Positions 19,675 to 48,400 of a stretch of 64,000 bases of DNA are shown here, in pieces. Both the position numbers and the translations under genes were made by a program. The first letter of the stretch is position 1. Each line of letters starts with the position of its first letter. The stretch is from contig NC_083509.1 in assembly GCF_032362555.1 (NCBI RefSeq), positions 6,285,001-6,349,000 on the forward strand, given 5' to 3'. Below the pieces are notes generated by a model that saw only the letters and a list, made by a program, of their open reading frames with translations, searched no databases and was not told the origin of the DNA. The DNA is from Amyelois transitella. Lineage: Eukaryota > Arthropoda > Insecta > Lepidoptera > Pyralidae.

Positions 19675-19711
19675 TTTTTTTACAATCTTATTTCAGTATT
19701 CAAATGTAGTT

Positions 19712-21207: not shown

Positions 21208-21590
21208 CGTGACACTATTCAAAATAACAACAATAATATAATTTAGTTAACTAATTCACTCGTAGATTCTGGGGTCAGTCGACATACATACTAGTACACA
21301 CTACCTAACCTACTTGTTCAGTTCGTAGACAGAGTTGCACGCACACAGTAACATTGATACCAAACTGACAATTTGACATTGACAACAACAAAAATAATTA
21401 AAAGGATATGCTGTACCTATGTTATTGACTATAAATTCCTATTCTGACTCAGACCAGCCCAGCCATAGCCAATTCAGATATTCCGAATTAAATGACATCA
21501 CTAACTGGTTTTTTTTTAAGTTTAAAATATATAGTCATGGCTGCGTCGCTTGCTTGAAGTTTGATTTCGCATAGTTTGTAAACCAAAAGT
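21208..21590. promoter_or_regulatory. Likely bidirectional promoter of mRpS6 and THOC2
   Basis: Only 383 bases separate the two divergent start codons, and both genes are expected to be broadly expressed, so the control region is probably shared. No TATA box or other element was confidently seen. Confidence 0.5.
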
Positions 21591-24500
21591 ATGGCATCTT
21601 TTGCAAGATTTGTTTCTGATTATTGTAAATCTTGGGACAAATCAGGAAAAGAACAATTGTAAGTACCTACCTTATGTACCTTAAGAGACTGCTCATACGA
21701 CAAACAAACACTGGAAAAACACATGTCGAAACTATGAATGTGTACCTAATTTCAATGGTTATTTGTACTACATTATACCCTAATCAGTTAAACACAATGT
21801 CTCTTTATTTGATAAGTACTAACTCATTGACCGATTACCAAATAACCTTCCTATTTTCAGTACCTACCTTATAAGCACTAGCCAATATGAATCTTCAAGA
21901 ATATAGAAAACTAATAAAATACACTAAAACGTGGGGTATGAATTCATAACAAATATGTTTTACCTTCTGTGTAGCGTGATAGATAAACTTCCTACTAATC
22001 TGTTTATTTTTTACTTTGCCTCTTTAAATTGATATAAGTACATAGAAAATCTACTGCCCGAATGCAAACTTAGTATAATACCCCTGTCGAATTTTGAAAT
22101 CATCAAATATACACTAATTATTGATAGTAATGAGCCATTAAATTTAGCACTATATTACTCTTGTAACACAATGATCAGCTGCTGATCTGTCTAATTGTAA
22201 ATGTTATTGCATTGTCAGCTTGGCTTTCATTGGCTACAAAACTTCTGATTTAAAGTATACCAAGCATTTAAGTGATGCTTTATATAGGTACTGAATGTTT
22301 CATGCATTATCTGTTAATGCTTGTGTCCTGTGGTTGTTATATATAGAATGGGATGTACTATATTTACATTAAATCTTAATATACATATTTCTATTATTTA
22401 CCCTATAATGTAATAACTGACTCGGTCACAATTGAATTGGCTATTAGCCACAAATGTTGTAGTTGGATTGTAGATGGTTGAATTCCTGAATAAAAAGGTG
22501 TAATGTAAAGGATTACAGTTTTAAATCCTGTTTCACCATGTACTCATAATCTTATAAATGTACATGCTCTTATAATTAGGGAAAACATCAACAAGATTCC
22601 TTATGATGTTCAAAATAGATCATGATTACACATCCAGATATGTAATCACAATTACAGCCTCTGTTATGCTTGCTGCTGAGATACAAGAATCCTATTTAAA
22701 AAACTCCTATCCTTTCCTATATGTTAGGTAAGAGAATGATGGTTAACTGCAACAGTTAAATAAAATTTTGTATTTTATTTTTAGCATAAAAAATGTGACT
22801 CAATCTATAAAAGATGAAGAGAAAAGTCCTTTATTTACAAAATCTGGAAAACTTTCTGGTGTATCGCAAAGTGTTTATGACTTACTCCTTTGTGGGTTGA
22901 GGGGCAATTTAAAGAAAGATGTAGTTCTCTCTACCCTTAGAGAAATTTCTGTAAGTATATTTATCTATAATGACTTGTCAAACTTGCTTAGCAACTGATT
23001 GTATGAGTGTAATGAAATATGCATAGTAACATATTTTGTTTTTATGTTTTATTAAAATTCTTTGTATTATTTTCAGTCTTTACATGCTGACATACCATCC
23101 ATAATCCTTGATGTCTTATGTGTACTTGATGCGGAGACCTGCACAGATATCCAAAGTGATGAACGTTCAAATTTCTGCCATATTGTTAGGGAACTAGAAT
23201 CATTTATGTCTGACAAGCTTTTGAAGGAAAGATTAGAAATTGACACATTACAAGATGTAGGAACTCTGAAGAATAAAAATTTTTATACCAAATTTATAAA
23301 AATCAAGACTAAGCTATAGTGAGTAAACTTCATATTTAAAATGGTTTTGATAAAGATTAATTTCATATCATTAATTTGATTGAATGCTATATATATAAAC
23401 AAATTGTATTTTTCAGCTACAAACAGCGTAAGTTTAATCTATTTCGGGAAGAGAGTGAAGGATATGCAAAATTAATAGTGGAGTTAAATCAAGAAATAAG
23501 TGAAGATATAGAATCAAAAACTTTATTAGAAATTATACAATCCTTGATTGGTATGAATCTTGTTTGAATTTATTAAAAACACTTATTTAAAAATTATTAA
23601 TTATATTGTGTAATGGAATTAAAATAATGCTTTTTTCAGGGTGCTTTAATTTAGATCCAAATAGAGTATTAGATATTATCCTGGAGTCCTTTGAAGCCAG
23701 ACCGCATCTAGATAAACTTTTCATCACTCTCATAAAAAATTACATGGGAGATCCACAAGTTATTTCCGAAGTTTTAGGCTTTAAGTTGGGAAACATGGAA
23801 GTCTTGGATACATGTAAGGAACCTCCACCATTGATGACTGTGATAGCTTTGCTTTTACAACATCAAGTCATATCTTTAGATGACATATTTCCTTGGGTAT
23901 GTAGAATTTTTGAGAAATGTGTATGTACTCATTTTTATTTCTTTTAGTTATTAACGTTATTACATGGAATATTTTTTAGTTACGTCCAGATAATTTTTTG
24001 ATGGCCAAAGAAGCAGATAAGGAATTTAAAGCTGCTCAAGACTATATTCGGAAATTAAATATTGTGTCAACCAAAGGTCCACAAGCCAATGGGCCCACAG
24101 AATTTGTTGAAGAAAAAGCTGATCCTCAGGTGAACAATAGTTACAATAAATACAGGAATTTCATTTTTTATTTATTTACCAATTCATGTACGCAGAAAAC
24201 TTGTAGGAATCAGAAACACAAGAAACAAAAGTACATAGGTTCTGCTTATTTCTGACCTGATTTGTATGTCACAATCCTTTCCAATGTTCTAATAGTAAGC
24301 AAGTTTTCTTCATAAGAGACACTTTGTAGACAAGTAATGCAAAATCACAGCTATCTCAATATGTAACTGAATTGGTCCTCTGTAACAATGCATGTTTAGT
24401 TTTAATGTGTATGGCACCACAGAATTTAGAATTGCACCTGTGTCTACCCACCCAGCCAAAAGACTAACAGATCACATAATGTCAACACTTACTGCTTTTT

Positions 24501-27500
24501 GCAGGAGTGATGTGATTCTCTTGCTCTATATCCATCCCTGGAAAATGAATATTGTTGTCACCTACAGTTATTTACAGTTATTCTGTTAATATTTTGTAGG
24601 AGTATTGGAACAATCAAAAACTAGTTCTGAGTGAAGCTTTACTCAAAGTGACAGCATGGAAGGAATTTGCAGCCCTGTCTGCACGTTTACCTGTCACCAC
24701 AATGTTTGCAAGACCTGCTATAGCATTGTGCAATATGTTGCATGCTCTCATTGAGCCATTATACAGAACGTAAGTGCTAAGTTTCATCATATTACCGAAA
24801 TCAATTTTAGTTTGACAAGGTATTTAAGTAAATTGTGTTCTAACACTAACTATTACCTGTTTACAGACATTGCCGAGTAGCCCCAAAGATAATAGGCAAA
24901 CCAATACCGCCATTGGAGTCTAGTTTAGCCCCACCTGCATGCAAAACCTTTGATGATATGAAAGAGACCGTTATTCCCGCCCTCATTCTGTTAGGTCCAG
25001 CTCTTCATCATGATCCTGTTTTAATGTATAAGGTATGTATTTTGTGATATTACCTATATTACCTAGTTATTTAATGTGAAAAATTTGTTAACTTTTTTTT
25101 CATTTTGTTATAGATTATTCGTATTTTACGAACAGCCCGCTCAAAACCAAATGACCCATTGCATTACGAAGCGCTCACAGTGCTTGATGCTGCCATTTTG
25201 CCATCCCTTACTTTGATGGAAGGTAACTGCTGCATGGCTGAAGAAATTTACACTTTGTTGAAGTTATATCCATATCAGTGTAGGTAAGAAATATATGGTT
25301 TTCCCATTTTTCATAAAGGTAATTGAGTTTATTTCACTTATTTGGAAAAATCATTTGTTGAATAATAAATACGATGTTCTTAGATACTGTTTATATTCCC
25401 GATGGAAGAATGAAGCTGGTGAAAAAATACCCGCATTGATGCGCGTGCGTGGAAATGCTCTACAAAGAATCAAGCACATCATGAAACGTGTTTCCAAAGA
25501 GAATATAAAGCCACAAGGCCGTCTCATCGGCAAACTGTCTCATGCTGCACCAGCCTTCTTATTTGACTATATGCTGCTTCAAGTAAGTGTTATTTAAATT
25601 TAATTTTTAAACCGTCTTGGCAATATGTAGTCTGTTTGTGGCCTCATCTCTAGAGAGGGGCCCAGAATCTGCTTTTACCATAATTTTCACTACGACGTGA
25701 TTTTGACGTTCACAACTTTGCAGATCGTATATTGTTCACGTTTGATGAATAATTTCAGATCCAAACATACGACAACCTGATCGGGCCCGTGGTGGAGTCC
25801 CTGAAGTACCTGACGTCGCTGTCGCTGGACGTGCTGGGCTACTGCCTGGTGGAGGCGCTGCAGCGGCGCGGGCGCTCCGCGGGCGCCGCGCACCCGCCGT
25901 GGCTGCAGGCGCTGGCCGCCTTCGCTGGAGCCGCTTTCAAGAAGCACAACATTGAACTCACTGCGCTATTGCAGTTCGTAGCGAACAGACTGAAAGCCCA
26001 ACACAGGTAAGCACTGTCAGCAATTTTCAGCTAATAAAGATAATAAAATTGGTATATTTTATGTATGCGTTTTAAAATATAATACATATAAATATGTTTA
26101 CTTTTCAGTCATGACTTACTGATTTTAAAAGAAATTGTCCAAAAAATGGCTGGCATTGAAGCTGCTGAAGAAATGACACCAGAACAATTAGATGCTATGG
26201 CCGGTGGAGAACTATTGAAAGGAGAGGTAACCTTTTTAGTGTCTCTTAATTAACTACTCAAAATATCAATTGTTATCAAAGTTTTAGTCTTTTAAGCCAA
26301 GGGTGTCGGTTACTTACTTAAATTGAATTATTTATCTATTTATGTACACAAAATATACAGAGGAGCATTTAATACAGTAATTCTAGTTCTTATGGCTCAA
26401 ACAAAATAGATCATATGTATTCTTTTTTTATAGGCTGGCTACTTCTCTCAAGTAAGAAATACGAGGAGATCATCAGCCCGATTAAAGGAAGCCATAGTTG
26501 GAAATAATTTGGACATTTCATTGTGTATATTATCTGCACAACAACGTCATTGCTGTGTTTGGAAAGGTAATTATAGAGCCATTCATTTTCAGGTATTAAG
26601 CCTTTCCCGAAATAACTTATAATGGGGTATTTAACTTAAAAGCTCTATCAAAGGTTTTTCTGGCCCATGTTATCCCCGCATAGTTTTTTAATGTCGTTGG
26701 ACCAGCGGGTTAATAGTCTGCCAGTATTCCTCTTTCCAGCTCTTGGTCGCCATTGCAGACGGATTTGCTCCATTGACCGTCTCCACATCTACACAGAGGG
26801 CCGGCCCCCGCCCACTTATGTTTAGCAAAGTGGTGACTACGTCCACTACCTACTCTGGAAGAATGCATTCGTTGTATACCTTCTTTTAAGAGATTGAGGC
26901 AGACTTTCGGATTTAAACACCAGTTGGATTCCACGACTTATTTCTGCCTCCATTGAATTTCTGACCATAATCTACTGCCCTAAGTTAATGTCATCCTCGC
27001 TCATCCACCAAATACAAATTTACATTATGAATTAATAATTTTTAGATGAAGAAGAAGTACCCGTGATTGGCGAACCGCCAGGGTCGCAACTGAAGGTAGT
27101 TGGCAGGCTGGCCGACCAATGCCAGGAGGCGTTAGTCCAACTGGGCACATTCCTGGCGTCCTCTCATGCTCCCGACGAGTATGCCGCTCGATTACCTCCA
27201 TTGCAGGTAATGTGATGTTGTTAAAAGTTTCTTTTGTACAAATTTGGTAGATAGTATTGTTTACCAAACCACATAAAATATCTTTTTTTAAACAAATTAT
27301 ATAGCTAACCAACCAGATATATCGGAATGGAAAAGACAAAATTCAAGTCAGTTCTTGTCTCACCGTAGACCACCTATATGGCGGACTGACATACATACAT
27401 ATAATAACGTCTCATATAATAATATCCCTTGCAGGGTAGACAGAGCCAACAGTCTTGAAAATACTGAAAGGCCATGTTCAGCTGTTTGGCTTATAGATGG

Positions 27501-30500
27501 AATTTAGATTTATATAAAGTGACAGGTTACTAGCCCATCGCTTAAAAAAAGAATCCCAAATTTATAAGCCTATCCCTCAGTCGCCTTTAACGACATCCAG
27601 ATCCAGGAAAGAGATGGAGTGGTCCTATTCTTTTTTCTATTAAGGCAAGGAACCACACGGCGTTTTGACCAATACGCCATGGAGTTCTTACACGAAAAGG
27701 TTTCACCGAGAATTTATTTGGAAATGATATTGTTCAGATATAGATTAAGTAATATCAAGTTACTTCAAAGAGACATGATTAAGGATACTTCGAACATCAT
27801 CAACATTTATAAATAATCATCATTATTTTTTACAGGAACTTCTCCGAGAGTATCACGTGGACGCTGACGTAGCGTTCTTTTTGCACCGACCCGTGTTGGC
27901 TCAAAAAATAGCGGCTCGAGTTGAAGTCTTAAGAAAGAGTTCTGATCCCAAATCGGATTCTTTAGAGAAAAGTATCGAGCGTTACACAACCGCGTCGAAG
28001 GAAACATTGGAGCCGATACTGGTATCTGTCACGCCGATGTTGCCTGCACGAGTTTGGGAGGATATCTCACCGGAATTTTATGTTACATTTTGGTCAGTTA
28101 ATTTCTTAAATGAGGTATTTTTGTATAATAGGACTGTGTTTATATTTGCGAAATACTGCTAAGAAATCTTGCTACTGAGTGACTGAGATAGACATATATG
28201 TAACAGCTCATAGTAAAATTATTAAAAAATAATAAAAACTGTACGGTCTTTTGAAATTTTAGGTCATTATCAATGTACGACCTTCGAGTACCAGTGGAAA
28301 GCTATGAGCGTGAGATCGACCGTTTGAAGATAGCTGCTGCCAACGCCGGGAAAGATATGTCGCAGGGGACAAAAGGGAAGAAAGAACAAGAGAGATTTAA
28401 CACTCTCATTGAAAAGTTACAAGTTAGTAAAATATATTAGCAAATTTTATTAATTTCCTGTGTTAAAAACACATTGGTTTATAATAAGAATGAAAAAATT
28501 AAACTTATGACCAATTCAGATTTATGAAATGCTTTCTTATGGCAAACTCCTTAATTTATGTTCCACCCAGATCAAGGGAAAAGGTGTACCTCACCCCACC
28601 CATTAAGCTAGTGCGATAAATAAAGGTAGGATGATTTTCAAGCATAAGAAAATATTTAAAACGAAATATTTTCTCACATGCCGTGTGGTTTCCGGCCTAA
28701 GAATAGGACCACTAAATCTCATTCCCAAGGATGTCATAAAAGACGACTAAGGGATAGGCTTATGAACTTGGGATTCTTCTTTTAGGCGACGGGCTAGCAA
28801 CCTGTCACTTTATATGGATCTCAATTCTATCAGTAATCTAAAAAGCTGAATGTGGCCTATCAGTATTTTCAAGACTGGTTGGCTCTGTCTACCCAGCACG
28901 GACACATAGACGTGATTATAAGTATATATGTTTTCTCACATAGGAAGAGCGTCGTCGACAAGAAGAGCACGTGGCGCGTGTTTCGGCACGTTTACAGCGC
29001 GAATGTGCCGGCTGGTTTCCGGCGCGTGCCGCTAAGTCTGCCAAGAACGAGACCGTGACCCGCCTCATGCAGCTCTGTTTGTTCCCGCGGTGCGTCTTCA
29101 CGCCTGTCGACGCGCTCTACTGTGCAGAGTTCGTGCACACCGTGCACTCGCTCAAGACGCCTAACTTTTCCACACTCCTGTGTTATGACCGGGTGAGTAG
29201 TCTCCCAATCAATGGATATCCTTTATTTGTAATATCTTTATTGCACAAAAATTAATACAGTTACAAGAAATAGCTCATAGTTGTAAAAGAAATAAATAAC
29301 TTGCAAGGCGGACTTATCCGATGAAGGGATGTCTTCTAGTCAACTGGCATCTCTCTAAGCTGGGTCCAGCTCCAGAGTTAGTATTAGAACTGTGATATAA
29401 CGTGTAGAGGGGCCTCGATTACCATTCATTTCATAGTTCCTCCATGGAATTTGCACTCGCATCTTTTTGTCATAATCGGGCTCCAGTTTTCTTGTGAATG
29501 TAGTCACACCGAAATTGGAGGAGGGACGCACATCAGAAGGAAGTTGTTGAAAGAGTGAACTAAGTTGCGCTACATATTTGTGTTACCGGCAGCTGTTCTG
29601 CGACATCACGTACTCGGTGATGTCGTGCACGGAGGGCGAGGCGGCGCGCTACGGCACGTTCCTGCGCCGCGTGCTGCGCACCGCCATGCGCTGGCACGCC
29701 GACCGCGCCGCCTTCCAGCGCGAGTGCGCGCACTACCCCGGCTTCGTCACCAAGTACCGCGTCTCCAACCAGTTCACCGAGGCCAACGACCACGTCGGCT
29801 ACGAGAACTACAGGTACCTACTGATATTACTCATCCGCTTAGTTCCTGCTGTCATCACGAGATAGCACTCGTAACAGATGTCAGATGCCACTGAGTGGTC
29901 TGAACAGTGTTGGCCACATACATAAATCAGAAAAATAAAAAAACAGATAATCCCAACAATGGATCATTTTCTATAAAGAAATAAAATTTAAATGTGGATG
30001 AAGCAAAGGAAGTATGCAGAGATCGTGGCAAGTGGAAAGAGGTAGTCTCTACCTACCCCTCCGGCAAAGAGGCGTGGTTTTATGTATGTATGTATGTAAA
30101 TAAGATTTTCTAAAGAGAATCATAATTTTTAAATCTTTTCAGACATGTTTGCCATAAGTGGCACTACAAGATCACCAAAGCGATGGTGGTGTGCCTGGAC
30201 TCGCGGGACTACGTTCAGATCCGCAACGCTTTGATTGTACTCATACGTGTGCTCCCACACTTCCCGGTGCTCGAGAAACTGGGGCAAATCATTGAAAGGA
30301 AAGTTGATAAGGTAACGAGATCTTAGTCTTATTTTAAAAGTTAATTTTAAATGTACTTTTCACGTAACCGGTGACATATATTATGAAGTCATTATTATAA
30401 GCTGTTCTTATTTGAGAACATTTTGTTTTTACTATTTCAAATCATACGATAAAAAATTGTAGAATATAGTCTTTGGTTGTTTTCGAAATATACTTACGAT

Positions 30501-33500
30501 ACTACTTCTTTCGTTTATGCCATCTAAAGTAGATTTTAATATTTTTTCTTAGGTAAAAGAAGAAGAGAAGACACAGCGTCAGGATTTGTACGTCCTAGCG
30601 ACTGGCTACAGCGGTCAGCTGCGCAACAAGGTTCCTAACATGATGAGGGAGAGTGACTTCCATCAGGTAAATATATAGCTTTTTTATTTTTGTTTTACAA
30701 TGTGTTACATTTTTAAAGTAGTTGCCTTTATTTTTTTTCTGATTGGCCTGGGTCTTGGATGTTTGTCAACGAGATAAGTATTTATTATAAAATATAGTAT
30801 CGTTGAGTTAGTATCTCGTAACACAAGTCCCGAACACACTTTGAGCCTAACTCAATCTGTGTAATTTGTCATTTATTGTTTAGATGTACAAAACTGAAAT
30901 GCATATTTGAAAAGTATTTGTAAGGCTGGACTGAGGGACAGACATGAATGACAGCAGTATGAGAATTAAGAAAGAATAAAGATGTAATTACAATAACATT
31001 TGTTTTCTGTTTAAAATAGGGCAACTCAATTTTTCTTCTGTGGATGTGTCATATGCAACTATAGTTAACGGAGCCCTTCTATTGATTTTTATTTTTATAA
31101 AAAAGCTTTTCATTTTAATGGTCTTGATTAAGATAGTGACAGGTTACCGGCACATGGCCTAAAAGTAATCGCAAGTTTAAAAGCCTTCTCCTTGTAAAAT
31201 AAAATGTCACCTCTTTGCCGGAGCAGAAACTATTCGTTTCCACTCGCGGTGCCTGCATACTTTCGTTTCATTTGCATTTACACGTGTATTGATATCGGTA
31301 GTTCGAGGGGACACTGACGTGTGAGTGGTTACAGGTGGGCGACAAGCACAAGGCGGCGGGCGCGGCGCGCGAGGAGCCCGCCAAGCGCGAGGACGCGGCG
31401 CGCAGCCCGCCCACGCCGCCCGGTCAGTCGCATGCACTAGTTTAATCAATACCATATCGACTTACTCCAATTCACCTCTATTACCACGTCAGAGTTTTAG
31501 TACATTACTTTAAATACTCTTATTATTGGTGCTCTTAGAGGGAAGAAAAACATCGTGAAAATACCTGCACATTCAGGCAACGAAGTAGCTATTAGTTGCT
31601 GGTACAAATCTCTGCCGAGACAGGTTTATTTGATAAAATTCAGCCACTCGTTTTCTTTTAATCAAATTTTATCGTGAATATTAAAACAGTAAATGTTTAT
31701 TTAGATAACGACAAACGAGACTCACGGAACAGCGACAGACGTCGTGATGAGTCGGATCGAGAAAAAGAGTCCAAAAGAGATTCGAAAACGTAAGTTATTT
31801 TACTTATATTTGTGTAAGTTAGTACTTATATTTGAGAAAGACCTACTGAGTGAAGCTCCTGATAAGCTACATCGATTTATGTTTACTAAACCCACATTTC
31901 GTTTACAGATCGCTCAAAGAAAGAGCAAAGGAGGAAATCAGGAACAAAGAGAAATCTCCAAGAGAACGATCGCACAGGGTTAGTTTATAAATGTTCCGTT
32001 GAATATTCATATTTACTCTAGCTATGTACCTACATACTCTGTACAAACACTTGAAATATGTACCTTTTCATTACCACATATTATAAAGTCCCCCTAGTTT
32101 CTCGTCTGTATGTATGCTTATCTGAGAAAGTTAAGGACGAATTTTGTTTCTGTTAGAAATTTTGGAAAGACGATTTACTGAGAAAGGTAAACATTAAATT
32201 CTACCTGTGTTGAATATTTTATTAATTTATAGGAGGAGCGTTATTTGGAAGCGGTATCCCCACCACATGACCATCGTCATCCCCCCGATGACATTGAACG
32301 AGGTAATTGTTTGAATATTTTTTAACTATATAAAGCAGCAGTAAACATTGTTTATTCTTCAGACCTCTATTATGTTCTCTGGACTTCTCAGTGGCGATGT
32401 AAAAAATGTCTCTTAATTTTTTGTCTTGTGGCGTTGACTGCGTTGTTATTGGCGTGAGGGACCATGGAATTACCCGTGGAAAGTTATTCCGCTTCCGCTT
32501 TGGAATTTTTCATGTTTATGTAATAACATAAATAGGCAATTTATGTAATAGATAATCGTAAACTCCAATCCTTATATTTAAAAATATTTTTGCGTTGAAT
32601 AGACCATTTATCGAGGAAGGTTTTAGGTTATATAACATCACGCTGCAAATATAAGGAGCAAAGAAATAACAAAAAAACGGAAAATTATTCATCCTTGAGG
32701 GCTTCAATGATGCCCAAAATAAATATTACACGCGGACGAAGTTGCGGGCACAGCTATTTATTTATAACAACAAAGTGTGATGTGATTCACACTAAATTTG
32801 ACAACATAACACTTTGGTCATTTATAACGCGATATTTATATTTTTACAGACGTGAAGCGGCGTAAAGTAGAAGCCGCCGGCAATGGCAAGGTGAGTATCG
32901 TTGTGATAAACCGACCTTGCATCGCGCTAGCGCCGGACTGAGGATTGGGCTGGACGCGACACCGCGCCCAGCGGACACCACCGCCGACATGTGAACATGG
33001 ACTATGAACTGTTAACAGTGCTAATATAAATAATTAAATCAAGAAAAAGTGTACATAAACCCAAACTACTGTCAAGCCTTCAAATAAGACTTAATCTTCA
33101 CCACTGGTAAAATGAAATATATTTAATTCAAGAAGCAATGAAGATAACTGCGGAGTATGAAGCATAAGATATAAAGATAAATTAACAATCGCAAAATCAA
33201 CACCAAATAGAGACCCTTTTTTAAATGGATTATTACCTACATCTGGAATCATGAATAAAAACCAGAAGGACAATAGCAAAGCGAATGAACCTAACATAAA
33301 ATAAAGATCAGTGTAATTTTATATATTAAAACAAATAAATCTTCCTTATAATCAACATAATGTTTATAACAAAAATATTAAAATTGTTAATGTCCAGAAA
33401 CTTGAAAGATGACAATAAGATGTAAGAAAATCGAAATGAAGGTGTCTACTGCTAAAGGATCTAAGATTGAAAAATTAACAAATTGAAGATTAATTATAAA

Positions 33501-36500
33501 TAAAAATGAAGAATAAAGCAACTGTAAAAATTTTCATCATCTAATATCTACCACCACATCGAGATAGAAAATTTTGGAGAAATCATCATGCAAGAACTTG
33601 AAGACTGAAAATTTACTAATTAACAAAATTTTATACAATTATCAAATGAAGCGTGTCGTGTGTCGTAAGTCCATTCAGCCCAGTCCAATAGCAAACTGGT
33701 AAGGTTTACTTTTTATATGAAAATATAACAAAATGAGCCAAAAGGACCAAGGGATTAATTCCGTGCCCCGCGGGAAGAATTTGACATGTTGAAAAAAGCA
33801 ATTTTACAGGGCGGCCATTTTAAACTTTGGCTTCCTCTGGAAAATGCATTTGTTTGTTACATTTATAACTTATACTTTATCTAAGGTAAACTTTTTACGA
33901 TGATTCGAATAACGTACAGTAATTTGCATAATTTTTCTTAGTTTTTGAAATAATCGACATGTCAATATGCGTACCGACGACTTATCAAGTGACTAATCCA
34001 TTTATCAATATATTTTCCAGAATGTAAAGATGAGTTATCAAGTTTTTCACCTATTATATTTCGTCTTTTTGTAGTAAACAACAATTTTAAACCAAAACTG
34101 TTATTAAAATCCTTGGTGGATGGGCAGCAACTTCATCTGCATACTTTGCGACCTTGACTTGCTTGCAAAAACTGGGCCGCCATTATTAAAAATGTACCCC
34201 CAGAACATTATTTTCTATTACTATCATCATATTTCTATTACTACATATGTACATACATAAAATCACGCCTCTTTCCCGGAGGGGTAGGCATAGACTACCT
34301 CTTTCCAATTGCCACGATCTCCGCATACTTCCATCGCTTCATCCACATTCATAACTCTCTTCATGCAAGCTCGGCGGTTTTGGATACTTTTGACCTGACC
34401 AGGACGTCCTTAATTTGATCAAGATACGTTCGTCTTCCCACTCCGACCTTTCCCTCCACGCTCTCCTTGTATATCTGCTTAGTCAACCTGCTTTCATTCA
34501 TCCTCTCCACATGACCGAACTACATCTTCTTTCACATCACAACATTCCCTTATCACGCTGTTCCTTATCCGGTCACTCAATTTCACATCCATCATACTCC
34601 TTAACGCTCTCATTTCCACTGCATTTATTCTGCTTTCGTGCTTCTTTTGCCATACCCAACTTTCACTCCCATACATCAATGTCGGGACCAACACGCCATG
34701 CACAGCCAGTCGAGCCTTTTTGGATAGTTTCTGACTGCTCAGAAAGGCATGCAAAGCTCCATTTACCATGTTCCCCGTGTTCACTCTCCTTTCAATATCA
34801 CTATCACACTTGCCATCTGATGTAAACTTTGATCCTAGATATACAAACTCTTTCACTTGCTCAACTTTTTCTCCTCCAATCAAAATATTATATGCTGTCA
34901 TTTCTTTCTCCATTTCAAAAACCAGTGTTTTAGTTTTACGTACGTTCACTTTCATTCCTTTCTCCTTTAAAGCTTCATGCATACAGTGGTGGTAGTTAGA
35001 TGGTAAACCATCTCCACTAACTCTTCTGCTGATGACGCCAGTATTACCTGATCGTCGGCATAGAGCAGACATTTGACGAGTAACTCATTCATCCTTAATC
35101 CACTTTCAGACTCTTTCAAATCTGTCAAACAACTATCCATAAATAGGTGGAACAGCCACGGTGACGCAACACATCCTTGCCTAACGCCTTTCTCAATCTA
35201 AAACCACTCAGTGTGCGTTCCGTTTATCCTAAAACAAGCACTCGAATCCTCATATAAGGATTTCAGTGCTCGTATTGAGAGACTGCTCACCCCATGCATA
35301 GAAAGTGCTGACCACAATTCATTCCTCACAACTCTGTCATAGGCCATTTCCAGATCTACGAATGTGCAATAGACTTTTTGACTCTTGGCCAAAAACTTTT
35401 CGGCTATGCACCGCAAAGAAAAGACCTGATCAGTACATCCCATTCCCGTTCAAAATCCCGCTTGAGCATCCCATATTTTATCATCAGTTTCATTCCTGAC
35501 TCTATTAATCAATACCTTAGCATACAATTTGCCGACGACGCTAAGCAGGCTTACCTATACCACGATAATTTTTGCAGTCCAGTTGTGACCCTTTTCTTTT
35601 GTAAAGTGGTACGATAACAGCCTTACACCAATCTTTTGGTACTCGGCCGCTTCTCCAACACAAATTGAAAAGGCAGTACAACTGACTAGCTACTACGCCT
35701 TTTCCTGCTTTTAGCATCTCGACCGACACTCTATCATACCCAGCAGCCTTACCCGCTTTCATACTCTTAAGTGCTTCCACAATTTCGAAAATTTCAATTT
35801 GGCCTTTCATCTCATTCTCTTTTTCTTCGCTATAGCAGAAATCGTTATTATGTCCTTCCTTTTTTTTTCAAATAAACTTTTAAAATATTCCTTCTATATC
35901 TTTAGCACACATTCTTCTTTCACAACGCTACCATCCTGGCATCGGATCCTAGTCAGCTCTCTGACGGCTGACCTTACGGATTTCCAGAATACTTTCAAAT
36001 TTGACTGAAAGTCTTCTGATAGCCTTTTATCAAATTCCTCTTTATACTCTTCTTTCTTTCTAATCACACCTTTCTTAACCAAATCTTTCCTTTTTTTATA
36101 TTCCTTAAAAATAAAAGCTAGTGACAAAATGCTTACAAATGTAAAAACTTTTTTATTGTATATTGTATTCGATGGAGCCTGATGTGAGTTACTTTTTACG
36201 CAGGCGAAGCTTTGGACAACAGCTAATACGAAAGTCAATATTTATTAAAATATAAAAATATTGTGAGATTGATCAAAGTTATGTACCTACCAAACTAGAA
36301 AACAATTATACTTGCGTAAGATTAACTAATTATCTGAATATATCAATTTACTATGTAAAACAATAAATAAATTTTAAATGTATTAATCAAAATATTAAGT
36401 AACGTACGTATGATATAAATCGAGTATAACCGATTAATTCGTTTTATCACTTTACATCGGGGAAGGAGGTACAATTTCTAAAGGAACAAATTCACATATC

Positions 36501-38975
36501 AGATTAGGAACCTCATTTGTTTTTAGATCGTAAGTTGATAAAACAACTTGTAATAATTTTCACAAAAGTTATGAGAATTCGAAAATTGATATATAGTCTT
36601 GTCAAGAAAAAAACCCTAATTATCGAGTTATCCACATACTACCAAATGAAATATCTCCGCAATTATTCTACCAATCTGGCTGTTTTTTTTTGACAAGGTG
36701 AATAATAGGCTTAGAAAGCGTTTGGACCAATAAAAAAAAAAACATGTAGGTCTAGTTGTCAAGATCTTCCCGCGCGCCACGGAATTATAACTTGCTTTCT
36801 TGAGATCACACAAGACACAAATTTGGAAATTACTTATTAATAAAAACAACAGAAGACCTTCAAACTGGAAGCTGCACATCAAGGAACAACAAAAGAAAAA
36901 GGTGAAAGCTGAAAATCATGAAAGCAGACCCATAAAGTTAATCAACATTTATTTTTCCTCCAAAGAAGACAACATGTCATCGAACCAGTCATCCATGACC
37001 ATCAATCAGGTTATAAAAATCGCAGTACATTGCGACAATATAAAATTTTAGAAGTGACATCTACACACCAAGGAGAAAAGAACCACAAAGAGTTGCAAAG
37101 AAAACGAACACTGATGTAAATAAAAGTATAGTTATATTAGTCCTTTGTGCCTTTTGGTTCTGTAGTTCATTGCTATAGAATTTTTAACATATACTTTTGA
37201 ATTTTCAATATGTATATATTATCACTCTTTAAATTTATAACGATAAACTAACTTGTATTTTTTAACAAGCAGGCAAGCAAAGAAATAGAGGAACGTTCGC
37301 CTGAGAAAGAGAAGCGGAAAGCTAAAGTTAGAGGTGACGAACGTAAAGAGCGTAAGATGAGCCGCAAAAGGGTAAGTTTGCCTTATTTGTGTTAACAGTA
37401 ATCTTAGTATTGCACCGAATACCGCTTTCAGATTACGTTTTTAAAGTATTTTTGTGAATACCTAACTAGATTTTTTACTGTATCGTTCTAGGACAGGGCT
37501 GAAGAATCTTTATTGCTGGAACAAAAACGACGACGCGATGAACAGAAAGGTAAAAAAAGATGTTATAGTATATTAAGCTGTACAACATTACCTATATGAG
37601 ATGGGAGCCGCGGGCGTAAGCTAATCCACACTAATAATAAAGGGAAAAGATTTGTTTTTTTTTATGTATATAATAATGACTAACCTTAAAATCTACTGAA
37701 CTGATTTTCATTAATAATAAAGGCTACTTTTTTTCTGAAAATCTCCACAGGAGCAAAGCCCTGCACAAAAGCTAGGTTTTCTTTAATATTAAATACATAT
37801 GTATTTTAAAATCAAACAAGCCATTAGGGAAATACGTAAAAACTTTTAATTGAAGATTTTTTTTCTCTTACAGCCATTATAAAAATGAACAGCCATCAAA
37901 ACGGATCACAAGACGATCATCATTACGAGAAATATCATAAAAGAGTAAGACAGTTTTGATTACTTTTTGTTTCAATTAGTCTGGGAACTAATGGTTTTCT
38001 ATTGGTTTAAAATCGTAGAGATACATATGTATAGACTTGCCACGATCTCTGCATACTTCTTTCGCTTCATCCACATTTATAACTCTTTAAACAAGCTTCT
38101 TACAAGCTCGTCGGTTCCGGTTACTCTAAACCTGATCTTTTGCTATAACATCTACTTTATTATGACGTATATTTTATTGTTTTTTTTTTTAGGAAAAATC
38201 GCCCTTCCGTGATCGATCGCACGAGGAACCACGAGACAAACAATATCCTTTTTAATATTTTATATTTAGTAGGTATAAATAATTTATTGGAATTTTATTT
38301 CGTAAAAAGGTCAACTTTTAAGATTTTTTATACCGTATGCATTCGTTTATTTGTTGTTGACAGCTTGTCGCACTGCAGTTACGTTTTACGTAAATGTTTT
38401 ATGTTTCGGGAAAATCTAAAATTATAAGTCATAAAATCTTCAAATTTTATAATAACATTTATCTTCCTATATACACAATACAAACATAACTTTCTATAAA
38501 CACAATACATATAACGATTGCATCACTGTTTAATGCATTTAAATTGTTTGAAATGTCTTTTAGGGTTTTGTATGTATCTAAAAGGTAAAATAAAAAGCTC
38601 TATAACTAAGACTTCGCTGTCTGTCCGTCTGTCTATCACTAGGCTGTAATCTCATAAACCGTGATAGCTGAAAGCTGCCCCAAACCGTGGTACACCCCGT
38701 TAGTTTACCTGGGTGTACCATGGCTTATATTTTTAAACCTGAGTGAAAAAAGGGTACAAATTATTTTGATACGTGAAACAACTGATAAAGTACCATGGTT
38801 TACTCTACGCATACGAAGTCGCATGCATCAGCTAGTTTATTAAAACTATGAACTTTTATTACAACGCAAATTTGATTGATTATTACACTGTATCTAAATT
38901 CAATTTATTATTTGTTGTGTTATTCCTTAACTATATAGCACTAGGCGGTCGAATGAATCAAAAATGAGAAGATGA
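21591..38975 (+). CDS. THOC2: THO complex subunit 2
   Basis: Thirty exons, 1405 residues (human 1593). Exons: 21591-21658, 22785-22950, 23077-23318, 23417-23550, 23640-23896, 23980-24129, 24600-24769, 24867-25032, 25114-25283, 25384-25582, 25759-26006, 26109-26226, 26434-26566, 27046-27206, 27836-28092, 28263-28422, 28944-29192, 29593-29813, 30143-30311, 30553-30666, 31335-31422, 31705-31789, 31909-31978, 32233-32302, 32850-32890, 37273-37371, 37492-37549, 37874-37944, 38193-38242, 38942-38975. Family knowledge: the scaffold of the nuclear THO/TREX complex, which couples transcription to mRNA export. Seen: [105 protein letters not shown]. From residue 1185 the chain is a charged Arg/Lys/Asp/Ser tail, as expected. 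All introns are GT-AG except the last, a U12-type AT-AC intron. The C-terminus [14 protein letters not shown] resembles the vertebrate end SSDKHR. A poly(A) signal lies at 39083-39088. Confidence 0.96.
26630..26940 (-). mobile_element. LINE 3'-terminal coding fragment in THOC2 intron 13
   Basis: Minus-strand reading gives [13 protein letters not shown] and, upstream, [14 protein letters not shown] in another frame. This is like the (G)RPxxRWxDDIxKxAGxxWxRxA C-terminal motif of insect non-LTR retrotransposon polyproteins. Frame breaks show it is dead. No RT domain is nearby. Confidence 0.6.
27389..27661 (-). mobile_element. (GTAT)n-tailed SINE in THOC2 intron 14
   Basis: Near full-length minus-strand copy: CATACATACATATAATAACG tail, CCCTTGCAGGGTAGACAGAG, GGTTACTAGCCCATCGC, and the GAACCACACGGCG head. 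No clean target duplication was found. Confidence 0.88.
28679..28930 (+). mobile_element. (GTAT)n-tailed SINE inserted in the acceptor of THOC2 exon 17
   Basis: Plus-strand copy from TGCCGTGTGGTTTCCGGC to AAGTATATATG. It is flanked by TTTTCTCACA at 28669-28678 and 28931-28940. The second copy plus TAG forms the polypyrimidine tract and 3' splice site of exon 17 (28944), so the target duplication rebuilt the acceptor. Confidence 0.92.
30000..30103 (+). mobile_element. LINE 3'-end fragment with (GTAT)n tail
   Basis: GCAGAGATCGTGGCAAGTGG, then ACCCCTCCGGCAAAGAGGCG and TTTTATGTATGTATGTATG. This is the same 3' end as the antisense LINE at 34250-36110, here sense to THOC2 in intron 18. Confidence 0.8.
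30738..30875 (+). mobile_element. 5'-truncated tRNA-derived SINE in THOC2 intron 20
   Basis: CTTGGATGTTTGTCAACGAG through TCAATCTGTGTAATTTGTC matches the body and tail of the SINE at 11187-11425. The tRNA head is missing. Confidence 0.82.
34250..36110 (-). mobile_element. Truncated, frameshifted non-LTR retrotransposon (LINE) in THOC2 intron 25
   Basis: On the minus strand, reading from about 36110 down: a basic helical linker ([13 protein letters not shown]), then reverse transcriptase motifs [59 protein letters not shown], the catalytic YADD box (near 35055, in a different frame from its neighbours), [19 protein letters not shown] and YGSESWVW. The 3' end has the CGGAGGGGTAGG box and a TATGTA tail near 34250. 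Several frameshifts and the lack of an endonuclease domain show it is an inactive 5'-truncated copy. RTE-like affinity is a guess from the microsatellite tail. Confidence 0.88.
38032..38115 (-). mobile_element. LINE 3'-region fragment in THOC2 intron 28
   Basis: GCCACGATCTCTGCATACTT and CGCTTCATCCACATTTATAA match the antisense 3' region of the LINE at 34300-34380. Confidence 0.7.
38243..38941 (+). other. THOC2: U12-type AT-AC intron (last intron of THOC2)
   Basis: The intron starts ATATCCTTTTT, the U12 donor consensus. It ends TTCCTTAACTATATAGCAC: the U12 branch-site consensus TTCCTTAAC, ten bases before the AC terminus. No GT donor fits here; reading through would add only YPF before a stop at 38253-38255. 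Removing it joins CA to T (His) and yields [13 protein letters not shown] and a TGA at 38973-38975. Confidence 0.88.
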
Positions 38976-41900
38976 ACGGGAACAAGCAGAACATGCATGG
39001 GAGATTCGAAGTCATACACTAATGTATTAATGCATTATGGATGTAACTTTCAAGAATATATAATAAGTATACTGTGTAATGAAATAAATCCTTGTGATAA
39101 GTTATCAAAAATTTTTTTTTATTGCTTTTTACCTTTTTACTTCCGAACAACCTATTACATAAGGTTGACACATTATTATCCGACAACAAAATGTAGGTTA
39201 TCAGCTTGGCACTACAAATAAATTATACTTATTTGAATTTTGAAAGTAAGATATCCTATCTAAAATAAACATTTATTTTATAGCCTGACATTTTCCTTGT
39301 ATATTAATCCCTACTTCAAAGTGTTTTCACGCCTAAACCACTGAACCAATTTTGATGGAATTTATTACAGAGATAGGGTTAACCAAAATGAAGAACATAG
39401 GGTTATAGTATTTATCGCGAAAAGGGGCAGAAGAGGTTGACAGAGGGGGTATGTTTGTAATATATTACTTTTTTTATATAATAGAATATGGAAATACGAC
39501 GCTGACTAATAATGGGCACGCAGACGAAGTCGCGGACGATAGCTTGTATATAAATAAATATTAGCCGCTCACTGCGTGCATGCCTAAGGAGGTATCTATA
39601 AATTCTTTTGCATTTATTATTTCTTTTATATGTTTTTCTTTGAGATTTTTTGGTAGTTTACTTTTAATCACTTTTTGATTTTACTATTTTTATGGTTTTT
39701 ATGACGTCCACTGGGCAACGTTCGATCACCCAGGTATTTTATAAATATTGGTCAAAAACAACAAACTACCTAAGCACTAACCCCTTGTGGCTAGCGTCTG
39801 CTTTAAGATTGAGCAAAAGGAAGTAACATTTTTTTACTGCTGACTTATTTATCCGTGTTTATTACATAATATCCGTGTATATTATGTGATATACACAGAT
39901 AAAAAGTCAGCAGTTAACAAAATAGACACTTTATTGTTTAATAAGGATAGTCAATGAGAATACTCATTCGATCTCTACGTTGTTTACGACTGAATGTCAC
40001 ATGTTGTACATTTTTTTCCATTGATACCGTTGGTCGGTTGTTTATTATTCCAAAAGGGCCTCGTGGGGCAAAAATTTGGGATGGGCCGCATAATTTGGTA
40101 GGAATTTATTTTTTGCATGGCAATTCGCTTCATTGTCAATGTCATATATATTTTATCAACTGTCAAAACTTCAGTTTCAATTGGTGAAGGTAAATTAAAT
40201 GACATTGATTTCTTTTGTACATCAATTAATTATTGCTACGTAGCAATATTCTGTACATGAGAATAAAAACTGCGTTTGCCCGAAGTGTGTGCAAGTATGT
40301 AGGTACATAATACTGTTAAAAGATCATGATTACGTACGTTTTTTTTTATTTTACGTTTATAAGCTCTATGGTTAAGTTTTATGTCGTTTAAAGATTATGG
40401 ATTATGCCGGGTAGCTTGTGGAAATTAAAATTCTGTTCAAAAATACTGCTGTTTTTTAACCGTTCATAGAAAGTTCTAGTAAATTGAATATTTTTGATCT
40501 GTTTTTATTTCGCGATACATGGGATGTTTCCTGGTTCATATTAGTTCTTTATGATGGTCACGTGTCGCGTTGGCGGCCATTTTGTTTCGACATTTCAAAA
40601 ATGTGACTTGACTCCATGACTATAAATTGTTCGACGATGTGAATTACTAGGTAGGTACCTATAAAATTTGTTTCATAAGTAAATAATTTGCTCGTCAGTT
40701 TCCAATTGTAAGAAATGTCTTATTTTTAATTTAGCTAATATTCATTATCAGAAGTTATTTGCTCATAAAGAATAAAATATATGTATGAACTTAAGTATTT
40801 TTTGTACCTATCTACTGTTAAATTTGAAGTTATACAAATGTTTATAGATTTATGTGGCCTTGGAACGAATGATTTATGTAATGGGTAATACAACACTCAG
40901 TCGTTCTCTCGTTTTCCATGTTTTAGGTAAGCTCAGAAATGGAATGAAAAAAAAAATAATTATGTGCGATGCAAATTGATAGTACTATTTGAAATAAAGT
41001 TAATTTGTTGTAGAGCAGTTGTTAAAACAATAATACTGACAAAAAATACAAAATAAATCCAATGCCCGTATGGATGATTCGGGATAAAGATTTGTAGTTT
41101 TTTATATCAATGTTAGAGCCGCCATTTTGTTGAGGTTTAAACGTGAACCAGCCATAACCTTAGATTATCGTAGGTCCCTAATCAAAATAAAAGCGAAAAG
41201 CTAGTTAAATCTATGAAACTCAACAAATTATGAAGAGGAGTTTTATGATGTTTATTATAGTTCATTATCACAGATTATAACTACCTATTACAAAATACAC
41301 AAGTACAAAAAGATAGTACTTAAATTATGAAATTCAAAGTTGTCAATTCGACCGTATTTTTTGTGTTAAAAACCCGCGTTGTAACATATTAGGATACGGC
41401 ATTTTTTGGAAATTCCCGCGGGATCGGGGGATAAAGGTAGTTTTCGTTTTCTACCCACCCTGAAGTCGTGTAGATATATGGCTAACACCTCTTCTTACAA
41501 AGAGAAGGGATGATCCTCATCCGCATTTATCTATCTTAGTGATTAGTAAAATCCAATGCAGGCAAGAGTGTATTAAACTATCTTAATGAGCTACGTAAAT
41601 TAACTCAATAAAAAAATTAAACAGTCTTCTAAAAACACTAAAAAGCTAACAATAATTGATAATTAAATTAACAATACACAGTAATTATCAAAATTATTCT
41701 GCTAAGTAACATAAAAAATATAATGATAAACTAACCTAGCATTTCATAAAACTAATCGTTACTTCGGTTACAACTTGTGTATGTATCTAAGTATGCTTAT
41801 TAGCTTGGGTAAAAATACAGAAAATGCTAAAACTCGTTTCTAATTTGTTAAAAGATACTGACTCTCGTGAGAATTTCCAGAAATGAAGTATGCAATGATA

Positions 41901-42473: not shown

Positions 42474-45400
42474 ATGGAACAAGATGTAAAAGTAGTATTT
42501 AGTTCGGAAATAACAAGGGGAACTTGTGGCGAAAAGAATAATCTGTACGAACTTTTGAATGTCGACCCAGCAAAACCGGTCCAGCTGAATGAAGTTTCAA
42601 AGCCTTGTACTTTCCAATCCAAAAATAATAAATGTTATGAGTATAAGAAGAAAAGCAAATTAAAAGTTAACACTGTAAAAGATATAAGAAAATTGCTGGA
42701 AAAAGATGTAGAAGCTTACTTACCTCAAAATTTAGAAAAACAACAAAATATGTTGTTAAAACAAATACGAAACGGATATGCCAAGAACGAAGAAACAAAA
42801 AAGTTAGCTCGAAATATTTTAAAATCGGATAATCCCATTTTAAGAACTGCTTGGCAAATGCTGACAAATATTAATCCAGAAGAAAACACTTATCCAGTAC
42901 AATATATTTTATGGAATGGTAAAAATATTCGTATTTGTGGAAGTAGAGGAGGTTATCATAAATACATCTATAAATTTGAAGTGCACAACAGCAAATACCA
43001 ATCAAAAAATAAGAAATCTATAAAAAAAACTCTTGATAATAGGAATAAATGTCTTTTGCAAAATTCACTTTCTCTTAAAATTAAACCTGGGCCTTTAACT
43101 CAAAAGAAGTTTATTGACGACTCTTATCAGAAGCATCATGTTGGAAATTTAGATCTAGTCTACTTACCGAGACCTGGTTTGGATGTAATGCCTGTTTACG
43201 GCTCTTCTATGGAGCCCTCAATAAGGAATTTTGTCAACAGTTTGCGGAATGTTGACGGGACCATATCACAAAAATGGGCTGAGTTCGCAGTGTCAATGGT
43301 TGGGACAATCAATAAATCACACGTTGTCCAACAACAACCACTTGCTTGTACGACATTTGAGCTGAATTATAAATACGATCAGAAAAAAATGCTGATGCGT
43401 CGTGATATTGAGAATATTGTAGAAAAGTCAAATGTAAAAAGTGAAAAATCTTTATTACTGGTTAATGAAGATGATGTTTTAGAAGAAGTAGGGAAAGTGT
43501 TGTGTGACATAATTGATGCAGTTGAAATAAGCTTTAATCAAGATAAAATATATACTGGCGAAGACGAAGTTAGAAATAATAATGAGGATATAAGTAATCA
43601 GATAAGTGAGAAAAGTACCAGTAATTATCCAAAAGACAAGAAAAAAAAATTTTGTGAGCTGGACAGATTGGATGTGACCGTAATAAGGTTACCCGAAAAT
43701 TCAGAAAATTGTAAAAGCAAGCATAAGTTATGTAAGAACACCTTTTGCCAATTAGGTTGCATCTGTGACTCTTTAAATTCTACTGTTATTGTTAAAGAAC
43801 ATTGTGGGCGGCTTGAATGTATGTTTCAATGTAAATGTGATTTTTCTAACTACAAGGATTTAGACAAGTATGGCAGTGTTTCGTCAGATTTGATTCCGGG
43901 TCTATTGAAAATAGATAAAGAAATAAATAATAAACTTTCCAAAGAAGAAAAGAAATTTCACCAAACAGTAGTTCTCTCTGGAGACAAAAGTATTATATTA
44001 AAATCACATAAAAGACACTGGAAAGCTTCATCCAAATATTCAGATTTTTATAAAACCATGAGCTTAAAAATGAACAAAAAAATTGATCGCAACTTAATAG
44101 TAGTAGCCACGAATATCAATTGTGACAATATTGAACCGTGGTGTATGGTGCACAATTTGTATAAATGTTTTTGTAAAGGCCGCTTTATTCATAGTGCCAT
44201 GGATTCTGAAGGTAAAAATTTCGAAGCACCAGTGGGCGTTGCAGTTGACTGTGAGAAAATTATAAATACAGAGTCAGCGAAATCTAATCCATCTTATATG
44301 CACACCCGCCCACAACGTGAAAAACCTCTTTGGAAATCTGAAAAAAAAGAAAGGCGAAAGTCAGATAAATTATTATCTGAAAGTTATTCAATACCGGTTA
44401 ATTTGGTCGGACCAACACAACAGGTTGATTACAAAAGTTCTTGTGCTAGGTCACAAGCATACGTTGGTAGAAAGTATAGTCAAAAATATTACCGCCATAT
44501 GAATTCTAAAATTCGTGAAATGGAGGAAGATGACTTGGGCTTACATAATAAATTAAAGAGCTTAGTAAGCATTGATGTGGTCGACACATATAATTTTGAT
44601 ACAACGTACCCACAAGACTCGGATTCAATGTCTAGGAAAAATAAATGTCAACTGAAAAATAAAATGGATGAAGAAACCAACCAACCAAATAAGAAAAAGA
44701 AAACGTCATCTCTTCAATTCAGTAACGTCGCAGCAGTGCCTGCAAAAGCCTGCAAATCTACTTCAAGAGAAGAGACTCCTGAATTAAATGCAGATCATAT
44801 TCGCGAAAACATGCTATCTGGAAGATTAACTACTACTAACGTAGAGGAATCAAACAAAAGTAAATTAGTAGCTTGGCTCGAATACAGTTATAAACAATAT
44901 AAAAAACGTGTCGATCTGGGTTTAACTAAACTCACACTACAAGCTCCTCAGTCCAAAAAAATGGCGCTACTGCCTTGGAATTTTATCCTAGAACGATATA
45001 AAGAGAGGAAGAATCTGTTTTTAGTCTCTAAACAAAAACCTTTTCGAATGTTTATGGCAGTTAACCGTGACCATCCATTTTTGCAAGAATGTGTTAATAT
45101 TGATGATATTCGATTTGCTGATTTGAATATTTATCCTATTACTGTAAAAAAATTAATTACAAACGCAACTGATTTAAAAGATAGTTTTTGTATTTTATGT
45201 GGACATCCATATTGCTGGGAATTAATAGGTTCCGTCACCAAAGTAGACGAGTCTAACAATGAGGATGGTTTAAAGTATGATGCATCAATTTGTACTGAAA
45301 ATTCACTGGATTACTGTGAAATTTACAATGAAAACGAAAATTCACGTAGTGAATCTGATCCACCAATATCCAGTGACGACGATACCTTAAGTGACACTCA

Positions 45401-48400
45401 GAAAAAAAGGGTGAACACTGAAGAAGTGGACACTAAAAAAAATTATAATGAATCGGAATCTTCAAAGTGGTTTGTGATGACAGTAGAAAAGGATTTCAGT
45501 GAAATTCAGTTTTATAACAAAGGCTTTTTTGTTAAATATGACAGTATTATTAAAGCCATAAATATTGCGAGATACTCCAAGAAAACAGTACGCCTTTCTT
45601 CGCAAAAGTGCGCAGAGAACAGTAATAATTCACAATTTGGTATTTACGCTATACCGAATTCTAATGAAGATAGTGTCTTTATTGGGCCATATGAATGCGA
45701 TGAAAGTTTGGGCATAGAAACTATCAGATCAATAACTCACACAAGACGAACAAGAGGTTATTGGATAACTACAAATAAAGTGGATAATAGAAACGTTATT
45801 GATAACCCGATGTCATTCATGCCTCCCGAAAATGAAAAGCCTAGCAAAATTCTTTCTTTAAAAAGTAAACCTAACGAGAAAAAGGATAGCTTTTCCTATA
45901 ATGAAGATGAAGAAAATATAGTTAATCGCCTTTCCCCAATTAAAAAGTTATTGTTGAATCCTATAAAAATAAAGAAAATTAATAATTTTTACTCTTTGTC
46001 AAATAGTTTTTTGGGACAACCTACGACACAAGTAATGGAAACAAACCAGATAGAACAAAGCAATACATTAGATAATGAAAATACAATTCTGGATACAAAA
46101 TTGGCTTGCAATACAACATCTGTATCGATAACTGATTTACTGATAAAATTAAATGCTCAGATGACCGATGAAACAAATGAAAAATCAACCTCAAATTTAG
46201 ATCAATCACTGCTGAAAAAATTGAATTCTGATTCTAAAGATGTTAGCGCAAAAAATGATGTAGATAAATTGACGGGGGACACTAAACCCGAGGACGGAAA
46301 AGGAGGATTTGCTATACTTAAACCAGAAGAAATTAATAGGAGAATAATGAACACTAATATATTTTTCAAACCAGATGATCCCTTAGATGAAGAAAATTCC
46401 GTTGGTATTTCGCAAAATACTGATTCACAAGTTGAAAAAGACATTGAGACTTTACTAACAACTCCATTGAAGTCTATTCAAGATACTAACATGGATGTCT
46501 TAGTTATATCAGACGATGATGAAAACTGTACAGATGAGAAGTCAGACGCTCCAACTATTACTGCTATTTGGATTGAATCAAGAAATGTAAATCTAGGCTG
46601 GATAGAGGGATTACTTAACAATAGAGACAATCAGATATGTTTCCAGTTTCCTGGATTTCAGTATTCGTCGTATTATCCAAAACAAACTGCTTTTGAAAAA
46701 ATTAACCAGTAAGTATTAAAATTTTTATAAACCATTGTATTTCGTATCAACCAGCCAAAAGATCAACAGCACTTAAGTCTGATTTACTTTATACAAGCTT
46801 CATAGTTCATTTAAGAATTTAGGGCTAAAACAAAAGTAGCATTTCTGCATAACAAGCAAGAAGTGTATCAAAAATTGTTCCGACTCAGAAAAGTGTTAAA
46901 TGTTAATTAAACATCTTTTCACACTTCCGGTGTAAGTCCCGGTTACTTCCTCACTTTTCAGGAGCCCGGGTTTTAACTATGATCCTGGTTTGGATGAGTC
47001 AGGTTTTTGTCACGAAACGACTCCCATCAGACCTCCGCATCTAACACATTTTGGATCATGGTTACACATCAAGTTGCCTGAATGAGTAGGTACATTGTTT
47101 TTCTTTTCACACCATGTAGAAAATTATTCACTCAGTGCGGTTAGCAGTCCTTGTCTTTTGATACCGTCATCTGCTAATTCAGTCCCGTAGAAATACACTT
47201 GATTATGATGAGGGACAAAATTTACGAAATTATTAGCACATGAAAATGGAAATGTAGTAAAAACATTTTAATACTCTCATTTAGTTAGACGGCCAAATAA
47301 ATAAGAAAAATATATTCTAGCTAGTTCGATGATCGAAGTATGTAGTGAGAATGCGAACATACGGTTTTCGTGGTTTTCTTTTATATCACAAGGAACAATG
47401 CAGATTCGATATATTTGTCTATTTGTTTCTCAGCTTGTTCATGGATCAGGGACAAGTCAGGACTCTTAGTAACTGAGCAATGTTAGTAAAGTCAGTAATT
47501 TAGCAATAGTACCTAAAGCCAATGAATTTTTTTTTACGTATTGTTTTTTTATTACAGAATTTTATCTCGGAGGATTTTTATTCCTGTAAAAATTAAAATC
47601 GAATGGCATATTCTGACGCAAGCAAGCGACCTAAGAGTTTCTAGAAAATTGCAATTAAGTGATCTGGGACGAGATCGCGTAAGTTATTATTTTAATAATT
47701 TATTTACGAACTTTATACTACTGTAGCTTGTAAGTGAGAAACAGATAAAAGAACAGAATTTACATACTCTCAAACCTCACACCGCTACTTTACCACCTAC
47801 GGTAAACGGTACGGTATGGTAGTTTCCCCCAATTGCAAAAATGCTGCAAAAAAAGTTTATTATGAAGCGATTATGTACCCTTAATCGTCGAGTTTTCATG
47901 AATAGAGTAATGTAATGGATGAAGCAAACGACATGCAGAGATCATGGCAAGTGGAAAGGTGTAGTGGTTTTATGTTTATTCTGGCTTTTGCGCGTGGCTT
48001 CGCTTACTTAGGAATTCTCAGAAAAATATGTTATTTCAACTACATTTTGTTAAAATCGATCCAGTAATTTTTGAGTTTATTCGTTATAAACAAAAATCAA
48101 ATGTCAAATCAAGGTGTAGTGTATAATTATAAGTAAAAGTCCCAACATTCGGCCGTTATGATTGAGATGTGGAATAGAAAATTTATGGTAGGTACCTAGA
48201 GGACGCCGGCGGCTCCGCCCCCTTAAAATGAAAAAATCCCGTTAATAGGGATGATACATGATGATGATGACATGGTCTCGAAACAATAGAAATTAGCCAA
48301 TAACATACACGTAATTAAAACGTTATGTGAATATTAGTAACGACGCCATAGATGTTTTGATATTCATTCAAAATAAGATTGGGGAGTTTTGGGAAATCCT

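Follow-up and report, generated by a model that had tools for sequence, protein, structure and literature searches.

How the coding region of THOC2 ends is the question raised by a gene in the pyralid Amyelois transitella, on the forward strand of the 64,000 nt stretch of contig NC_083509.1 analysed here (the window). A sequence-only reading had proposed that its last coding intron belongs to the rare U12 type, begins with AT and ends with AC. We modelled the gene, scored its splice signals, compared its end with that of human THOC2 and weighed the other ways in which the transcript might be processed.

Gene model and splice signals of the last intron

The model was built from the genomic sequence, with exon borders placed by eye and checked by the frame remaining open across all exons. 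The coding part runs from 21591 to 38975 (+) and comprises 30 exons encoding 1405 residues. Pfam domains THOC2_N (E 2.6e-68), Thoc2 (1.9e-22) and Tho2 (2.8e-108) were found in residues 1-1184, the portion submitted, and human THOC2 chains in PDB match the window protein, the C-terminal 315 residues giving E 2.6e-26. Judged by these matches the gene is the mRNA-export gene THOC2, as had been proposed. Introns 1-28 are GT-AG (28 of 29), and the only AT-AC intron is the last, at 38243-38941 (+; 699 nt, phase 2).

U12-type introns are marked by the donor consensus [A/G]TATCCTT and the branch consensus TTCCTTAAC, the latter also given by the sequence-only reading. Scores here are plain counts of consensus letters matched rather than weight-matrix values. 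The 5' splice site of the AT-AC intron, ATATCCTTTTT at 38243-38253 (+), matches the donor consensus at 8/8 positions and the U2-type GTRAGT at only 2/6, its core ATATCCTT being a perfect U12-type donor. The putative branch site TTCCTTAAC lies at 38923-38931 (+) and matches at 9/9, with A38929 and A38930 as candidate branch adenosines. The AC 3' splice site at 38940-38941 (+) ends 10 nt past the last base of the branch motif and 11 nt past its second A, A38930; counted from A38929 the distance is 12 nt. Either spacing falls inside the optimum of 11-13 nt described for U12-type introns in PMC3584512. The same source describes these introns as lacking a distinct polypyrimidine tract before the 3' end; here the count of 9/15 pyrimidines lies within the range of the 28 GT-AG introns (7-14), so that this measure does not separate the classes. 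The combination of an 8/8 donor and a 9/9 branch site occurs in one of the 29 introns, and in the last 40 nt of each of the other 28 no branch score exceeds 7/9. The donor, the branch site, the AC end and the exact coordinates of the sequence-only reading all held, and with them its assignment of the intron to the U12-type AT-AC class.

Among the gene's donors, that of intron 12 (26227-26433) comes second, the U12-like GTAACCTTTTT matching at 7/8; the AG acceptor of this intron is pyrimidine-rich (12/15). We considered intron 12 as a second minor intron on account of this donor (GTAACCTT, 7/8) and rejected it, as its best branch score is 5/9. It is possibly a converted intron or a mere look-alike.

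We then asked how often such signals arise by chance. The full grammar was defined as AT..AC or GT..AG ends, the last base 10-16 nt past the branch A and a length of 60-5000 nt. Perfect instances numbered one on the forward strand of the window and none on the reverse, and were found in 16 of 1000 simulated strands (1 of 100 in a separate smaller run). As the simulations required neither a donor at an exon end nor a join that keeps the frame, the true chance is below the simulated rate. Perfect donors by themselves are common in the AT-rich DNA of the window, with four on the forward strand, five on the reverse and approximately 2.9 per simulated strand. The perfect branch motif is rarer (0.26 per simulated strand), and the copy at 38923 is the sole one on either strand of the window. 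Allowing one mismatch in the branch motif gave one pair on the forward strand and two on the reverse (0.81 per simulated strand), one mismatch in the donor gave six and none, and one in each gave 12 and 14. Mismatches thus soon yield chance pairs and a loosened grammar is of little value.

Exon 29 (38193-38242, +; 50 nt) ends with GACAAACA, its last base at 38242. The coding sequence upstream of the AT-AC intron amounts to 4184 nt, which places the intron in phase 2 of codon 1395, a histidine split as CA|T. Splicing would complete His1395 with the first nucleotide of exon 30 (coding part 38942-38975, +) and add ten residues, most of them basic or polar, ahead of the TGA at 38973-38975, for a total of 1405. 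The intron thus closes the coding region, as had been claimed, being the last of 29 with the stop in the next exon. With the intron kept, the frame runs into a TAA at 38253-38255 and the protein ends ...DKQYPF after 1398 residues, the YPF dead end that had been predicted for unspliced transcripts. The further claim that a gene finder limited to GT-AG introns would truncate the protein is true, but the effect is small (1398 against 1405 residues), the last 11 being replaced by QYPF. Skipping of exon 29 leads to an immediate stop. An AATAAA motif at 39083-39088 (+), 108 nt past the stop, could by its letters serve the spliced mRNA as poly(A) signal.

Comparison with human THOC2 intron 37

Human THOC2 provides the closest comparison. 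Intron 37 of NM_001081550.1, whose donor is at c.4754+1, is described in PMC12547740 as a U12-type AT-AC intron; for a control, RT-PCR and Sanger sequencing are reported in the legend of Figure 6 there. The change c.4754+1A>G at this donor in a patient diverted splicing to an AG within exon 38, so that 7 nt were lost and the frame shifted, which is presumed to explain the phenotype. From the published position we calculated that the human junction (4754 = 3 x 1584 + 2) is also in phase 2, in codon 1585 of 1593. The human protein in PDB 7znk chain B has the tail ...GGKEEKKHHKSSDKHR, ending at residue 1593 with ...KEEKKHHKSSDKHR. This register makes codon 1585 a histidine preceded by lysine. The published deletion and the change p.His1586Pro (PMC12547740) would fit a human exon 38 that begins with T, as exon 30 does here.

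The two introns, the human one as described in that paper, therefore share their U12-type class, AT-AC ends, phase 2, a split histidine codon preceded by lysine, an AG near the AC and the position of last coding-region intron. They differ in what follows: eight residues come after the split codon in human and ten in the window, and the human tail HKSSDKHR is unlike that of the window. The alternative human AG drops 7 nt and shifts the frame (PMC12547740), whereas the two AGs that flank the AC in the window, each at a distance of 3 nt, keep the frame. In phmmer searches of PDB sequences, the 105- and 28-residue window tails gave no match at E up to 10, and the human and window tails do not align by sequence. 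The introns are thus matched in position by their phase, their subtype, the split histidine and the number of residues left before the stop (10 in the window, 8 in human).

Weighing these signals, we consider it very probable that the window intron is the last coding-region intron of THOC2, of U12-type AT-AC class and orthologous to human intron 37. The two agree in gene, phase, subtype, split residue and location close to the protein end, and a single old intron explains this most simply by far. Both introns would then descend from an intron of the common ancestor.

The sequence-only reading had matched the two protein ends by the letters DKHR, said to coincide with the vertebrate THOC2 terminus. 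These are indeed the last four letters of human THOC2, but as residues 1590-1593 they all follow the junction in codon 1585, whilst the DKHR of the window straddles its own junction. An alignment on DKHR is thus out of register and was discarded; the junction-matched human sequence is KKH|HKSSDKHR. The sameness with the vertebrate intron is probably correct, but not because of DKHR.

Whether this is also the last intron of the transcript depends on the 3' untranslated part. PMC12547740 describes 38 human exons, with exon 38 as the final one. PMC7026477, by contrast, refers to an exon 39 and reports a deletion of exons 37-38 by which 34 residues are lost and an RT-PCR product drops from 999 to 876 bp. 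By our arithmetic on these published sizes, the 123 nt deleted exceed 34 codons plus a stop by 18 nt, which implies that human THOC2 has a further intron 18 nt beyond its stop codon. The designation 'last intron' is therefore safe for the coding region only and perhaps not for the transcript. In the window, eight GTs lie between the stop and 39110. None close to the stop makes a strong donor, and GTAACT at 39043 (U2 donor 5/6) scores highest. On this sequence the window THOC2 may have an intron in its 3' untranslated part.

Other ways of processing the exon 29 boundary

The nearest alternative retains the minor intron and moves its end. In-frame AGs at 38937-38938 and 38943-38944 (both +) end exactly 3 nt either side of the AC, so the acceptor position is uncertain by one codon: use of the upstream AG would give 1406 residues and use of the downstream AG 1404. 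That one of these AGs (intron end 38938 or 38944), rather than the AC, is the main 3' splice site fits the preservation of frame by both. It also has parallels in human THOC2, where the AT-to-GT donor change in the patient shifted splicing to an AG with the loss of 7 nt (PMC12547740), and where knockout of RBM41 in human cells alters the choice of a U12-type 3' splice site (PMC11039992), which indicates that acceptor choice there can shift. According to PMC3584512, however, AT-AG pairing is disfavoured, and of the three acceptors it is the AC, 11-12 nt from the branch adenosines, that falls within the optimum described there, the flanking AGs being at 8-9 and 14-15 nt. We regard a flanking AG as the main acceptor as unlikely. 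Should the AT of this donor become GT and a flanking AG be used, approximately one residue would change and the frame would be kept.

The remaining alternatives dispense with the U12-type AT-AC intron. If the intron were simply retained, exon 29 would be the last of THOC2, the protein would end ...DKQYPF, and the U12-like motifs further downstream would be chance or remnant. The unspliced frame does stop at 38255, and an AATAAA lies inside the intron at 38589. Against this, donor, branch site and spacing are perfect, the join stays in frame up to a stop, and an AT-AC U12-type intron occupies the matching codon of human THOC2 (PMC12547740), which makes retention very improbable. Conventional splicing would have to start from GTGATC at 38209, the only GT in exon 29 before the read-through stop. 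At 4/6 this equals the weakest of the other 28 THOC2 donors (4-6 of 6 to the U2 donor), and acceptors are plentiful: 30 AGs lie between 38270 and 39080, ten of them with at least 9 pyrimidines in the preceding 15 nt. Yet none of the joins from 38209 to these ten enters the frame of the ten residues of exon 30, the resulting tails look arbitrary, and a perfect U12 donor would be left idle 34 nt downstream; such a GT-AG intron seems to us scarcely plausible. Processing of the AT-AC intron by the major spliceosome has precedents in the U2-type AT-AC introns of sodium channel genes (PMC2831892). Those introns are described as having G at +5, whereas the window intron has C, and its donor matches the U2 consensus at 2/6 against 8/8 for U12, so that we give this reading almost no credence.

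Proposed splicing, significance and distribution

As expected for its class, removal of the U12-type AT-AC intron would begin with recognition of ATATCCTT by U11 and pairing of U12 with TTCCTTAAC. The AC 11-12 nt past the branch A would be taken as the 3' splice site, and the minor spliceosome would join exon 29 to exon 30 inside the His1395 codon, supplying the last ten residues and the stop. We infer that 38243-38941 is spliced in this fashion in A. transitella, which presumably has a working minor spliceosome.

The THOC2 tail matters in mammals, as indicated by the deletion of exons 37-38, which in the patient of PMC7026477 also added 16 residues from the 3' untranslated part and which is described as hypomorphic and disease-causing in PMC10853216. 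A U12-type intron in mammalian THOC2 is also reported in PMC5435706 and PMC11039992, whose accounts give no intron number. Together with PMC12547740, these papers as consulted document that splicing of the intron can be disturbed rather than a regulatory switch. A regulatory role for the window intron, an interest raised by the sequence-only reading, is possible. One form it might take is a conserved feedback valve, in which slow minor splicing would keep export-factor mRNA nuclear and, in this lineage, three in-frame acceptors (AG, AC, AG) would allow tails one residue longer or shorter that keep the frame, as the human acceptor shift does not; we hold this to be a long shot.

By its sequence the intron is real, apparently old and of an already familiar kind, the invertebrate counterpart of a minor intron known from human THOC2. 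In one human patient, mis-splicing of the minor intron near the end of this gene is the presumed cause of disease (PMC12547740); in an insect, such an intron appears in the matching codon. It is a good example of an AT-AC intron preserved over a long time, and it cautions in practice that annotation restricted to GT-AG introns would mis-call the end of THOC2. As the coding effect is small, confined to the last 11 residues, the survival of the intron lends itself well to testing whether minor introns are retained neutrally or for a function.

Flies provide a point of comparison. Table 2 of PMC2831892 gives 19 U12-type introns in Drosophila melanogaster, 16 of them with a U12-type human ortholog. 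AT-AC ends, as in the window intron, occur in nine of the 19 rows (eight according to the text of the paper), and THOC2, unlike in the window, in none. Its absence from that table is in line with the heavy loss of U12-type introns in Diptera described in PMC10639083. The terms 'thoc2' and 'tho2' do not occur in the main text of PMC7644725, whose supplementary list of 48 further fly introns lies outside that statement. Amongst the open-licence PMC matches listed, no title or abstract concerns a U12-type intron in insect THOC2; papers under other licences, or unlisted, may have one. In the part of PMC4291461 on Bombyx snRNAs, only papers on U1, U2 and U6 are named for Bombyx. Rfam at gathering thresholds returned a single match in the whole window, a tRNA, and no snRNA. 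Two scans of viral contigs for THOC2 relatives gave 11 and 22 pattern matches, none of them confirmed.

The surroundings of THOC2 contain several further features. Head to head with it, an ORF at 20755-21222 (-) matches ribosomal protein S6 (Pfam Ribosomal_S6) and is presumably a mitochondrial ribosomal protein. The two start codons are some hundreds of bases apart (THOC2 starting at 21591, +), an arrangement that suggests a shared promoter region. The minus strand also carries, downstream of the S6-like ORF, an ORF with a ferritin-like domain (20086-20508). The longest THOC2 intron (32891-37272) is 4382 nt. On the minus strand within it, approximately 34494-36100 resembles by eye a degenerate retrotransposon reverse transcriptase; one 192-residue ORF in this region had no Pfam match at 0.001. 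The tRNA calls at 11347-11423 (-) and 15578-15653 (-) do not overlap between programs, Rfam making one weak call (30.3 bits, gathering score 29) and ARAGORN a different one (tRNA-His); both may be tRNA-derived repeats. Exons at 13000-19680 (+) resemble by eye those of the ciliary gene BBS7. Downstream of THOC2, a single ORF of 1412 residues at 42474-46712 (+) carries an MGA conserved domain, and an ORF at 62680-63093 (-) matches the MADD death domain (Pfam Death_MADD, E 7.9e-37).
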